Source: a virus. From it: a DNA stretch of 43,690 nt. The notes below the pieces were generated by a model. The model had not been told where the DNA came from. It was given only the letters and a program-made list of their open reading frames with translations, and made no database searches. Positions 2,844-43,690 of this stretch are shown in pieces. Location: the IMG/VR virus record IMGVR_UViG_3300028045_000033, positions 1-43,690 of that record. One strand, written 5' to 3'. How positions within the stretch are numbered: position 1 is the first letter of the stretch; each line of letters starts with the position of its first letter. Made by a program: the position numbers and the translations under genes.

Positions 2844-3052
2844 AAAAACTATACTGCGAAAAATGTCGTGAGCAAATCGGGGAAATATCCAAGGGTCGCA
2901 TACGTAGAGATACTATACTCATATGCCGTGATTGTCAGGATGCCGATGAACTTGAACGATCAGCCGATAACATCAACGATGCTGTTGGTAATATTAAAGG
3001 TATGGGTGGTTTTGAAAACATATTCAATGATATTTTAAGCGGTAAGGCTTGA
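2840..3052 (+). CDS. Small zinc-ribbon protein
   Basis: 70 residues. CEKC (6-9) and CRDC (29-32) form a compact zinc ribbon with a basic hairpin between (KGRIRRDT), followed by an acidic helix and a Gly-rich end. Likely a nucleic-acid- or polymerase-contacting adaptor, but the partner is unknown. Last gene of the first operon: a new promoter begins within its final codons. Confidence 0.65.
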   Translation: MKKLYCEKCREQIGEISKGRIRRDTILICRDCQDADELERSADNINDAVGNIKGMGGFENIFNDILSGKA

Positions 3053-3077
3053 CTTTAACGAGAAAATGTGTTATAGT
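3049..3077 (+). promoter_or_regulatory. Sigma-70-type promoter for the replication operon
   Basis: TTGACT at 3049-3054 and TATAGT at 3072-3077, separated by exactly 17 bp. Predicted start near 3084, about 80 bases before the initiator gene. The -35 box overlaps the stop of the preceding gene. Confidence 0.85.
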
Positions 3078-3086
3078 ATGTATAGA

Positions 3087-3157
3087 CCTATTAAGTAGGG
3101 AGTGCTGATCGTGATCGGCTCCCATTCTTCTTACTGGGTTGCAAATAGCTTAATAGG
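3087..3157 (+). promoter_or_regulatory. Structured mRNA leader that can hide the ribosome site
   Basis: CCTATTAAG (3087-3095) is the exact reverse complement of CTTAATAGG (3149-3157), a closing stem of nine pairs plus a U-G pair. Inside it is a second hairpin, GGGAG (3098-3102) with CTCCC (3119-3123). The 3' strand of the closing stem contains most of the AGGAG ribosome site (3155-3159) for the ATG at 3166. With the stem formed, translation should be reduced. The layout is riboswitch- or thermosensor-like, but it matches no class I know. Confidence 0.55.
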
Positions 3158-3165
3158 AGTAAGCA

Positions 3166-3966
3166 ATGAGACAAGAATTAGAAATAGTTGATCTTAGGGA
3201 AAAGTACTTTAAGGTTAGCAATCAGATATTCGAGGAGAAATTAGATATATACGAAATTGGTGTATATTCTGTTTTGTGCAGATTCGCAAATAATGACAGC
3301 TCGGAATCTTTTCCAAGTATAACTAGAATACAAGAAATGTTAAAAGTTAGCAGACCGAAAATAGTAAAGACACTAAAATCATTAACTGAAAAAGGAATAA
3401 TTCATAAAAAATCTGGTAATAAAGGTTATTCAAACAGATACTATTTAATGTCACTACCTAGTAAACGAGAGTTACTAGTTAATGAGATTAACCAACCTAG
3501 TAAACCACAGTTACCACAGGTAGTTAATGAGGTTAACTCTATAAAGACTAATAATAAAAAGACTAATAATAAAGACTATACAAAAGAGAATAATATTCTA
3601 TTAGCAAATAAAGAGTTTAACTTTATAGTTGCATGGAAAGAATGGGTAGCATATAGATTATCATTAAAAAAGAAGATGACTGAAATAACTATAAATAAAC
3701 AATTAAAGATGTTATCTAAACAACCAAATGCAGTAGATGTAATTAACCAGTCAATTGAAAAGGGTTGGTCTGGTTTATTTCCTATAAAAGAGTTTAATAA
3801 TTATACACCCAAACCGCGTGAACACGACGCACGATTTAAAATACTAGGTCTACAACCTAACCAATACAACGATGCTTATGCCACAATCAAAAAGCATCAT
3901 CTACAGCCTAACCAGCTACAATCATCACTAAAGCCGTTAATGAAACGGGAGGGGTATATAAAATGA
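3166..3966 (+). CDS. Winged-helix replication initiator (O/DnaD-like)
   Basis: 266 residues. The N-terminal 90 residues are a helix-turn-helix of the phage replisome-organiser type (YEIGVYSVLCRFAN, then FPSITRIQEMLKVSRPKIVKTLKSLTEKGIIHKK). A Lys/Asn-rich linker (about 105-145) coincides with the repeat-rich, origin-like DNA. The C-terminal domain (AWKEWVAYRLSLKKKMT ... IKEFNNY) resembles the tail of phage replication proteins that recruit helicase. Its own promoter and structured leader lie upstream and the helicase gene downstream, supporting a role in origin binding and helicase loading. Start has AGGAG six bases upstream. Confidence 0.75.
   Translation: MRQELEIVDLREKYFKVSNQIFEEKLDIYEIGVYSVLCRFANNDSSESFPSITRIQEMLKVSRPKIVKTLKSLTEKGIIHKKSGNKGYSNRYYLMSLPSKRELLVNEINQPSKPQLPQVVNEVNSIKTNNKKTNNKDYTKENNILLANKEFNFIVAWKEWVAYRLSLKKKMTEITINKQLKMLSKQPNAVDVINQSIEKGWSGLFPIKEFNNYTPKPREHDARFKILGLQPNQYNDAYATIKKHHLQPNQLQSSLKPLMKREGYIK
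3478..3600. other. Candidate replication origin inside the initiator gene
   Basis: Two 15-bp dyads, GTTAATGAGATTAAC (3478-3492) and GTTAATGAGGTTAAC (3523-3537), lie 45 bp apart and are followed by two direct copies of AAGACTAATAATAAA and an AT-rich stretch to about 3600. Iteron-like repeats plus an AT-rich tract in the linker-coding part of the initiator gene is the lambda O arrangement. Sequence alone cannot prove origin use. Confidence 0.5.
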
Positions 3967-3998
3967 GTGAATGGATAAGCGTTAAGGATAGATTGCCA
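3963..3998 (+). repeat. 36-bp direct repeat at the start of DUF551 copy 1
   Basis: Matches 4277-4312 at 35 of 36 bases; the only difference is a silent C/T. The proteins diverge strongly after this segment, so the identity of the first 36 bases is more than expected from ancient paralogy and suggests recent gene conversion or recombination. Confidence 0.9.
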
Positions 3999-4163
3999 GA
4001 AAAAATGCCTTATAGATGGGAAATGGTTATTGTTCATAAAGAAAACGGTGTCATTATGGAAGCTATGTATAACACAAGGGTAGGTGAGTTTATGAAAGAT
4101 TTTAATTCATTATCTTGTAAAGTTACCCACTGGCAACCATTACCACCTCCACCAAAGGATTAA
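3963..4163 (+). CDS. DUF551 protein, copy 1
   Basis: 66 residues beginning MSEWISVKDRLPE and ending THWQPLPPPPKD, the signature ends of the DUF551 family, small phage and prophage proteins of unknown function. The middle (MVIVHKENGVIMEAMYNT) is the usual beta core. It overlaps the initiator gene by four bases with GGGAGGGG upstream. A second copy follows at 4277. Confidence 0.85.
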   Translation: MSEWISVKDRLPEKMPYRWEMVIVHKENGVIMEAMYNTRVGEFMKDFNSLSCKVTHWQPLPPPPKD

Positions 4164-4166
4164 GTT

Positions 4167-4280
4167 ATGAAGACTCTTTATGAGGAATTAAAAGAATTAA
4201 ATAAGGCAGTTGAAGATTTAAAAAATGCTTTTAGAAAAGAAATCAACAAAATATTAAAAGTTTTTGGATTTAAGTTATGA
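4167..4280 (+). CDS. 37-residue amphipathic helical protein
   Basis: Reads MKTLYEELKELNKAVEDLKN and continues AFRKEINKILKVFGFKL: a single amphipathic helix with hydrophobic residues in heptad spacing, probably a small coiled coil. It lies between the two DUF551 copies, follows AAGGAT, and its stop overlaps the next start. The sequence before its start (GGATTAAGTTATGA) is nearly repeated at its end, so the gene may have been inserted by a short duplication. Function unknown. Confidence 0.55.
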   Translation: MKTLYEELKELNKAVEDLKNAFRKEINKILKVFGFKL

Positions 4281-4480
4281 GTGAATGGATAAGTGTTAAG
4301 GATAGATTGCCAACAAATATTAAAGATGTTTTATTTTATACAGATTCAAGCTTATGTATCGAAACGGGATGGTTCGACTGTGATGACACTTTTAATTGGT
4401 TCACACATGATGACGTATATTTACAGTCGTGTGTAACCCATTGGCAACCACTACCAAAACCACCAAAGGACACACCATGA
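4277..4480 (+). CDS. DUF551 protein, copy 2
   Basis: 67 residues with the family ends MSEWISVKDRLP and THWQPLPKPPKD. The central part differs from copy 1 (VLFYTDSSLCIETGWFDC). Overlaps both neighbours by four bases. Function of the family is unknown. Confidence 0.85.
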   Translation: MSEWISVKDRLPTNIKDVLFYTDSSLCIETGWFDCDDTFNWFTHDDVYLQSCVTHWQPLPKPPKDTP

Positions 4481-6900: not shown

Positions 6901-7271
6901 AAGTCTGTACCAAATGCCTAAAAGATAATACCGAAGTAAAGTTTTATGACAACTGTTCTAAATGTGTCGAGTGTCAAAAGTCATCAGTTAAGAAATATCT
7001 AAAAAATAAAAAACAACTGTATGTATGCAAAAACTGCTTAAAGGTTGTACACAGCAAAGACATGGATGGTAGCAGAAATTGTCCACAATGTGCGTCGTTG
7101 TTTGATGCCATATCCGAAAGAGTTTTGAAAAATGAGCAATATCGCAACATGCCAAAAGAAGACCGAGTCGAGCAAACGGAACGGTGTAAGCGGTATGGCA
7201 AAATGAAAGATGGTGATAAAAAATATATCAAGTACCTAGAAGATGAGCAAGCTAAGAAGGATAAATTATGA
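6897..7271 (+). CDS. Cys-rich zinc-binding protein
   Basis: 124 residues with CTKC, CSKCVEC, CKNC and CPQC pairs (residues about 4-64), enough for two zinc-ribbon sites, then a charged helical tail (KEDRVEQTERCKRYGKMKDG). The pattern resembles small zinc-ribbon proteins that bind nucleic acid. Overlaps both the methyltransferase and RtcB by four bases (ATGA), so it may be translated in a fixed ratio with RtcB. No family named. Confidence 0.65.
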   Translation: MKVCTKCLKDNTEVKFYDNCSKCVECQKSSVKKYLKNKKQLYVCKNCLKVVHSKDMDGSRNCPQCASLFDAISERVLKNEQYRNMPKEDRVEQTERCKRYGKMKDGDKKYIKYLEDEQAKKDKL

Positions 7272-8419
7272 AAATTATAAATACTGAAAAATTACCAATT
7301 AAAATGTGGTTAGAAGAAATTGAAGACGGTGCTTTGAATCAAGCAAAAAACTTAGCTAACTTACCATTTACATTCAAATGGGTGTCAATAATGCCAGATA
7401 GTCATCAGGGTTATGGTATGCCTATTGGAGGAGTATTAGCAACTAAAAATGTAGTTATTCCAAATGCGGTCGGAGTTGATATTGGTTGTGGCATGTGTGC
7501 TGTTAGAACAAATATAGATAATTTAGAAATAAATGATTTAAAATCAATAATGAATGGTATTAGAAAAAATATACCTGTTGGTTTCAATCATCAAAAAGAA
7601 CCTATGCAATGGGATTATTTCAATAACGCACCTGATACTTATATTATACAACATGAATTAGAAAACTCAAAATATCAATTAGGGACACTTGGAGGAGGTA
7701 ATCATTTTATTGAAATACAAAAAGGGTCTGATGGTTTTATATGGATAATGATACATTCAGGATCAAGAAATTTTGGTTTTAAAGTAGCAAAAGAGTATCA
7801 TGAAAAAGCCAAAAAACTTTGTGAGAAATGGTACTCAGATTTACCAAATAGTGATCTTTCATTCTTACCTATAGGAACTAAAGAAGCAGAAAATTATTTT
7901 AATTCTATGATCTTTGCTTTAGAGTTTGCCAAAGAAAATAGATTTAGAATGGTGGAGGAAGTAAAGAAATGTTTTCATTTAATTAGTGATGGCATATCGT
8001 TTGACGATACAATTAATATTCATCATAATTATGCTAGATTTGAAAATCATTATGGTTCAAATGTCATGGTTCATAGGAAAGGTGCGACATCAGCTAAAGT
8101 TGGAGAATTAGGCATTATACCCGGATCACAAGGAACTAAGAGTTATATTGTAAAAGGGAAAGGTAATAAGGAATCATTTATGTCATGTTCTCACGGCGCT
8201 GGTCGTAAAATGGGTCGAAAGGAGGCTCAAAGGAAGTTATGTCTTAAGGATGAACAAAAAATACTTGATGACCAAAATATTTTACATTCAATAAGAGGTA
8301 CTACTGATCTTGATGAGGCAAGTGGAGCATATAAAGATATATCAGAAGTTATGAATAATCAATCAGAGTTAGTAGATATTGTCACAGAACTAACACCATT
8401 AGCTGTTATAAAAGGATAA
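7268..8419 (+). CDS. rtcB: RtcB-type RNA ligase
   Basis: 383 residues, close to the size of bacterial RtcB. Visible signatures: MPDSHQGYGMPIGGV, GVDIGCGM with metal ligands Asp71 and Cys74, LGTLGGGNHFIE, IHSGSRNFG, HHNYA, VHRKGAT, GSQGTKSY and SCSHGAGR with His309, the residue that becomes guanylated in the family. RtcB joins 2',3'-cyclic-phosphate or 3'-phosphate ends to 5'-hydroxyl ends using GTP and manganese. In a phage the plausible job is repair of tRNA or mRNA cut by host anticodon nucleases or toxins. No archease or RtcA gene is nearby. Confidence 0.95.
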   Translation: MKIINTEKLPIKMWLEEIEDGALNQAKNLANLPFTFKWVSIMPDSHQGYGMPIGGVLATKNVVIPNAVGVDIGCGMCAVRTNIDNLEINDLKSIMNGIRKNIPVGFNHQKEPMQWDYFNNAPDTYIIQHELENSKYQLGTLGGGNHFIEIQKGSDGFIWIMIHSGSRNFGFKVAKEYHEKAKKLCEKWYSDLPNSDLSFLPIGTKEAENYFNSMIFALEFAKENRFRMVEEVKKCFHLISDGISFDDTINIHHNYARFENHYGSNVMVHRKGATSAKVGELGIIPGSQGTKSYIVKGKGNKESFMSCSHGAGRKMGRKEAQRKLCLKDEQKILDDQNILHSIRGTTDLDEASGAYKDISEVMNNQSELVDIVTELTPLAVIKG

Positions 8420-12029: not shown

Positions 12030-12298
12030 AAATACCAAAGAAAATTAGAATCATAGGCAAAACATACGATATCAAAATAGTTGATCCTGTAGACATCTAT
12101 CAGAACGATGGCAATATACAATATAACATTAGTGAAATAAGGGTAAAAAAGAGTCAATCCAGAGAGTGTCAAGAGCAAACATTCTTACATGAGATAACAC
12201 ACGCCATGATGGATACATTGGGTATCGACATGGGAGAACGTGACATTGACTGTGTAGCCAGTGTCCTACAGCAAATTATACCTCAAATAGAGGACTGA
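12026..12298 (+). CDS. HEXXH metallopeptidase-like protein
   Basis: 90 residues: a beta-rich N-terminus (IPKKIRIIGKTYDIKIVD) and a helix carrying HEITH (55-59), the gluzincin zinc motif, followed by MMDTLGI and an Asp/Glu region. It resembles small phage proteins related to ImmA/IrrE or SprT-type peptidases. If active it would cleave a host or phage protein in the cytoplasm; the substrate is unknown. Last gene before the structured leader of the surface-modification operon. Confidence 0.65.
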   Translation: MKIPKKIRIIGKTYDIKIVDPVDIYQNDGNIQYNISEIRVKKSQSRECQEQTFLHEITHAMMDTLGIDMGERDIDCVASVLQQIIPQIED

Positions 12299-12340
12299 GT
12301 TGGAAAAAGTTTATATTCAAAAGTTTCTCCAAGGTGAAGC

Positions 12341-12377
12341 GATCACGGGCATTTCCTCCCCTATGTTGTCCGTGGTC
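12341..12377 (+). promoter_or_regulatory. mRNA hairpin with an anti-Shine-Dalgarno loop
   Basis: GATCACGGGCA (12341-12351) pairs with TGTCCGTGGTC (12367-12377), eleven pairs including two G-U. The 15-base loop contains CCTCCCCT (12355-12362), complementary to the AGGGG ribosome sites at 12393-12397 and 12424-12428. A competing stem, ATCACG (12342-12347) with CGTGAT (12377-12382), is also possible. This suggests control of the glycosyltransferase operon by loop-ribosome-site pairing. No function is proven. Confidence 0.5.
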
Positions 12378-12388
12378 GTGATTTAAAA

Positions 12389-12448
12389 AAACAGGGGTGT
12401 ATTATGATAAAAACAATAGAAAACAGGGGTATATTTTGACAACAATAG
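12389..12448 (+). repeat. Tandem duplication of a translation start region
   Basis: 12389-12419 (31 bases) and 12421-12448 (28 bases) are near-identical tandem copies beginning AAACAGGGGT and ending AACAATAG. The first copy has an ATG and opens an 11-codon frame; the second has a TTG that opens the glycosyltransferase. The two starts are 32 bases apart and in different frames. Confidence 0.85.
12404..12439 (+). CDS. 11-codon leader peptide
   Basis: ATG 12404 follows AGGGG by six bases and encodes MIKTIENRGIF. Its TGA (12437-12439) overlaps the TTG start (12436) of the glycosyltransferase, so ribosomes that finish the leader could restart there. It arises from the tandem duplication and may be only a by-product, but the coupling geometry is good. 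Confidence 0.4.
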   Translation: MIKTIENRGIF

Positions 12449-43553: not shown

Positions 43554-43690
43554 AGGAGACATTATGAACCTATCAAACAATCAACCAACCGAGTTCACAG
43601 TATCACGCAACATAGCACTAAGCAAGGTTAATAATAAACTTGAAACACTTATGTCAGCATTATCATGTAACCTCGACTTGAGACTATATC
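43554..43690. repeat. Terminal direct repeat, right copy
   Basis: 137 bases matching 1-138, exact over the first 126, then one T short (TT at 43678-43679 where the left copy has TTT). The partial gene in this copy is therefore frameshifted. Confidence 0.95.
43564..43690 (+). pseudogene. Partial, frameshifted second copy of the first gene
   Basis: Starts with the same ATG and codons as the gene at 11, but a missing T after codon 38 shifts the frame, and the window ends soon after. The change is in a T run at the very end of the sequence and is most simply a read or assembly error, not a biological pseudogene. Confidence 0.7.

Follow-up and report, generated by a model that had tools for sequence, protein, structure and literature searches.

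Translation of a phage replication initiator appears, on balance, to be controlled by a conserved cis-acting leader at positions 3084-3165, which is modelled to adopt two mutually exclusive folds. The window, the whole stretch analysed, is the IMG/VR virus record IMGVR_UViG_3300028045_000033, with 43,690 bases. The computed results are a stem over the ribosome site (P1), compensatory changes of this stem in one relative and two folds of near-equal energy. A preliminary description had called the region a riboswitch-like leader before the initiator; the leader covering the ribosome site stands, while the temperature sensing proposed with it does not agree with the modelled exposure of that site, as can be seen below. 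To our knowledge, the control of initiator synthesis is understood in detail for few phages.

The gene behind the leader (3166-3966, plus strand) encodes a protein of 266 aa with HTH_36 and DnaD_N domain matches and the PHROG match phrog_678, 'replication initiation O-like', and is followed downstream by a DnaB-like helicase at 4429. Thus, its previous designation as replication initiator is right. Two interleaved, origin-like direct-repeat pairs are located inside this gene, at 3456-3537, namely ACCTAGTAAACNANAGTTAC at a spacing of 39 and TAGTTAATGAGRTTAAC at a spacing of 45. Two small neighbouring genes, both matching phrog_924, lie around a 113-nt gap (3963-4163 and 4277-4480). The gene run that contains the leader encodes, further upstream, a 200-aa protein (1766-2368) matching Imm5_like (Pfam) and phrog_38757, and the early region carries a phage-borne RtcB RNA ligase (7268-8419, Pfam E 8e-114). 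Regarding the record as a whole, its first 30 bases recur at 43554, 137 bases before the end (1-30 vs 43554-43690), and a terminal-repeat check found no exact end-to-end overlap; consequently, the record may be close to circular or have an imperfect end repeat. Hairpins are also predicted elsewhere in the window: a near-perfect 19-bp hairpin, ATAAAAAGTACCTATACTT...AGTATGGGTACTTTTTAT, at 869-914 in the end region of ORF 633-941, and a strong one of 13 pairs at 12338-12382, near the gap between a gene end at 12298 and a gene start at 12397, which is not a tRNA.

The 113-nt gap between the gene end at 3052 and the initiator start at 3166 contains a promoter, an inverted repeat, a GC-rich hairpin and the AGGAG ribosome site, all on the plus strand. 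The promoter is of the sigma-70 type (TTGACT-17-TATAGT, 3049-3077) with a TG before the -10 element, forming an extended -10, and its predicted RNA start is at about 3084-3085. The arms 3087-3095 (CCTATTAAG) and 3149-3157 (CTTAATAGG), 53 nt apart, are a perfect 9-bp inverted repeat, being P1 in the RNA. The 5' arm, acting as the putative sequesterer (CCUAUUAAG), begins a few bases past the predicted start, and the 3' arm (CUUAAUAGG) covers A3155-G3156-G3157 of AGGAG (3155-3159, read from the sequence), which ends 6 nt before the ATG at 3166. P1 encloses a GC-rich hairpin, P2 (GGGAGUGCUGAUCGUGAUCGGCUCCC, 3098-3123), paired as GGGA-GU-GCUGAU/AUCGGC-UCCC. The closing stem, the second hairpin inside it, the cover over AGG and the closeness of the 5' arm to the mRNA start had all been pointed out in the preliminary description, and every one of its coordinates holds. 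Sequestration of the ribosome site in a stem, by which translational riboswitches are recognized, is therefore found here through complementarity and the predicted fold of P1. Behind P2 there is a linker strand at 3130-3140 (CUUACUGGGUU), whose first six bases (3130-3135) have a possible pseudoknot partner, AGUAAG, at 3158-3163; positions 3161-3165 can alternatively close the hairpin GCUUA-AUAGGAG-UAAGC, with the ribosome site in its loop.

Taken by itself, the stem in the window is weak. The fold has a z of -0.8 to -2.2 against shuffles depending on the ends chosen (-1.0 for 3080-3200 and -2.2 for the tight stretch). A 9-bp Watson-Crick stem arises in 8/1000 shuffles of the 91-nt stretch, and a stem of at least 9 on the ribosome-site arm in 1.0% of them. 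As the window has some 60 genes against which this chance of about 1% is to be read, the stem would not stand alone, and the case is made by the comparison with a relative.

Close relatives of the initiator were absent from the viral_contigs, genome_contigs and phages collections, and none were found through the gene upstream of the leader or through the helicase. A terminase search gave four related contigs, and the most complete relative, IMGVR_UViG_3300028840_001832 (41.9 kb), has a terminase 55% identical to that of the window. A terminase profile search of genome_contigs had no match; the terminase shares 30-44% identity with those of uncultured aquifer phages and of Bdellovibrio and Nitratiruptor phages, which is too distant to name a host. 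In the first 6.9 kb of the relative (L006), a leader at L006:561-655 sits directly before the relative's own initiator, with the order TGATATAATTAGTTA-CCAAATTAGTAT-(GC hairpin)-linker-ATATTAATTTGG-AGAAACAATCAAAAAATG. Its promoter has an extended -10 TATAAT with TG (L006:561-566), and its P1 of 12 bp has a 5' arm placed where the RNA is predicted to start and a 3' arm whose last bases are the GG of GGAG. This GGAG lies 13 nt before the ATG, a spacing above the usual. The fold is far from chance, with a z of -4.2 to -4.6 and 0/200 shuffles equalling it. Thus, both leaders share the extended -10, P1 on the ribosome site, a GC-rich hairpin (different from P2 of the window) and a similar linker, where 13/17 bases of the window segment 3131-3147 (UUACUGGGUUGCAAAUA) are the same in the relative (UUACUUGUUUGGAAAUA). 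Meanwhile, the two initiators cannot be aligned (BLASTP E=36), and their Pfam domains differ, being Phage_rep_org_N in the relative and HTH_36/DnaD_N in the window. The same layout thus stands before dissimilar initiators in two distantly related phages, and the claim of a conserved leader, with two sequences behind it, is provisional.

When both leaders are aligned, P1 keeps 9/9 pairs: three have both partners exchanged, two of them from U-A to A-U and the other from A-U to U-A, a fourth goes from G-C to G-U and none is broken. When the partner columns are shifted by 1 to 3, just 12-56% of the cells are still paired. This covariation is thin, being equalled in 72/500 column shuffles, about the best that two rows allow. 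Compensatory changes, the mark of a conserved structured RNA, are therefore seen in one relative only; the preliminary description had named a stem without such changes as the outcome speaking against it, and the opposite is observed, with three of the nine pairs compensated. The likeness of the linkers also exceeds chance, the best ungapped match having a p of about 0.0006 against shuffles. Searched over all IMG/VR, the pair pattern gave 40 matches, among which only the relative itself has a P1 exceeding 6 bp. When 1.95 Mb of strand were scanned with a descriptor, three sites appeared, both leaders and one other, an apparent specificity that is inflated, as the descriptor was defined once both leaders were known. 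By sequence alone, the relative's leader ranks about 95 of 40,444 windows in a 1.8-Mb scan, which is not exceptional and would not have led to it; thus, it is structure together with position that carries the case. Comparison of the leader DNA with phages and plasmids by blastn gave just short chance pieces. The descriptor and a covariance model found no third leader in 20 related records and 12 stretches of cultured or aquifer phages, an absence that says little, as the related contigs are mostly fragments.

The element is switch-like due to a predicted alternative fold between the 5' arm and the linker, which was absent from the preliminary description. In the window, 3085-3095 (3085-3090 and 3092-3095) would pair with 3130-3140, as GACCUA-U-UAAG with CUUA-C-UGGGUU around P2, forming 6 bp, a 1x1 mismatch and 4 bp, and permitting the GCUUA-AUAGGAG-UAAGC hairpin, whose loop exposes the ribosome site. 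The relative repeats this geometry with CCAAAU-U-AGUA and UACU-U-GUUUGG. The calculated energies of the P1 and competing folds are -22.8 vs -22.6 kcal/mol in the window, equal within error, and -23.9 vs -26.0 kcal/mol in the relative by direct evaluation. In growing-chain folding, the competing fold is predicted first in both leaders, before the ribosome-site arm emerges; once it is out, P1 wins in the window but not in the relative without help. A pseudoknot is also possible, CUUACU:AGUAAG in the window and UUGUUU:AAACAA in the relative, matched by 5% and 9% of shuffles, respectively, and the competing helix is matched by 2.9% and 16% of linker shuffles in the two leaders. The registers of the competing helices differ by two bases on each strand, so that they are not homologous column by column, and the pseudoknot is off-register as well. 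In addition, the predicted open fold of the relative leaves its ribosome site able to pair with the early coding sequence. Together, these energies and this geometry suggest two states.

As P1 hides the ribosome site, the P1 fold should be the OFF state, perhaps reinforced by the short pseudoknot between the linker and the bases past the ribosome site, which could also give the relative the help that its P1 state needs. In the ON state, the 5' arm would be taken up by the linker in the helix stacked around P2, freeing the ribosome-site arm. This ON fold would form first during transcription, so that newly made RNA would be open to translation until a later refolding, brought about by a ligand, by protein binding or simply by the passage of time, would close it; the initiator would then be produced in a burst from new transcripts. 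Our statements on the occurrence of these folds in vivo, on the direction in which they act and on a trigger, its existence as well as its nature, are inferred from the models. A bolder and rather unlikely proposal is that the leader represents a phage riboswitch or timer RNA of a class not described before, a module placed before unrelated initiators, setting the start of replication by sensing a metabolite or protein of the infection state. If the leader is kept while the initiator is exchanged, the control element, and not the protein, would be the stable part, and the small set of phage-carried RNA switches would be enlarged.

Other explanations of the same stem have to be weighed. Without any switching, P1 could act as a static damper that keeps translation low, or as a 5'-end stability element that guards this end against ribonuclease. 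This reading, to which we give a minor share of our belief, agrees with the position of P1, which in both phages begins only a few bases from the predicted RNA start, and with a covariation that falls in P1 while the competing helix is weakly supported; however, a pure damper does not need a linker likeness beyond chance, and the near-equal energies of the window folds and the shared competing geometry also argue against it. A protein could instead block or free the ribosome site, either the initiator itself or another phage or host protein, a precedent being T4 gp32 and gp43, replication proteins with established autogenous translational control by leader structures (PMC3014915). Such an operator is improbable: with a leader that is retained before differing initiators, autogenous control is disfavoured, as two non-aligning proteins of different Pfam families would have to read one RNA, and a different protein as binder would be the trigger of the two-state explanation. 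Temperature is disfavoured as a signal, since the GGAG exposure modelled for the window leader (nearest-neighbour model) falls from 0.94 at 15 C to 0.55 at 65 C, the reverse of an RNA thermometer. An upstream ORF noticed by eye in the window leader (GTG near 3101-3111) was dropped, as no counterpart is read in the relative.

Chance pairing in an ordinary intergenic spacer of both phages would suit the unremarkable window fold (z about -1 to -2) and the number of cases, two only, but it is quite improbable when the relative's fold is far outside its shuffles, three changes are compensated, the element takes the same place in both phages and these make up two of the three descriptor sites in 1.95 Mb. 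Transcription attenuation, with P2 and the U-rich linker as a weak intrinsic terminator, is very improbable: the P2 of the relative is called terminator-like and AUUCUUCUU follows the P2 of the window, yet the U run is interrupted, the window hairpin is not called as a terminator and the conserved P1 on the ribosome site would be left without a role. Hardly any credit goes to a DNA element, an operator or origin misread as RNA; it would fit the adjoining promoter and initiator and the origin-typical repeats within the initiator gene, but further copies of the arms in the window do not exceed chance, the arms covary as partners with no fixed site, and the G-U pair suits RNA. The two-state leader is thus the reading preferred here.

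Regarding known systems, the whole window has no family at the gathering score in Rfam 15. In a permissive search (E up to 10), the best match of the window leader is Clostridium-PBP, with 17.3 bits vs a gathering score of 94.4, and the relative's leader likewise stays far below the gathering score; the previous statement that no riboswitch class matches is thereby borne out for both leaders. A full-text literature search for phage riboswitches, with subscription journals thinly covered, found no report of this leader. Translational riboswitches of the SAM-II and preQ1-II type sequester the ribosome site, and the leader resembles them in being short, with the ribosome site in a stem, a possible pseudoknot and a predicted, weakly supported competing fold; however, it precedes a phage replication gene instead of a metabolic gene, and no such family is among the Rfam matches with E up to 10. 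The initiator leaders of IncI/IncL/M type plasmids are controlled by a pseudoknot and antisense RNA. The proposed setting of initiator translation by leader RNA folding is similar, but no leader peptide is seen in both phages; a search for antisense promoters at both phage leaders gave none beyond chance numbers. Melnitz-like phages carry a glutamine riboswitch (PMC9004378), a switch-like RNA on a phage as the candidate described here, differing in that it is of a known class, while the present leader matches none. The T4 proteins gp32 and gp43 regulate the translation of their own genes by means of structured leader RNA, which for gp32 is a pseudoknot located 67 nt upstream of the start codon, ahead of an unstructured ribosome site (PMC3014915). 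The leader is like these operators in placing an RNA structure at the gene of a phage replication protein, with control being predicted here; unlike that of gene 32, its P1 covers the ribosome site, and the same layout stands before two dissimilar initiators.
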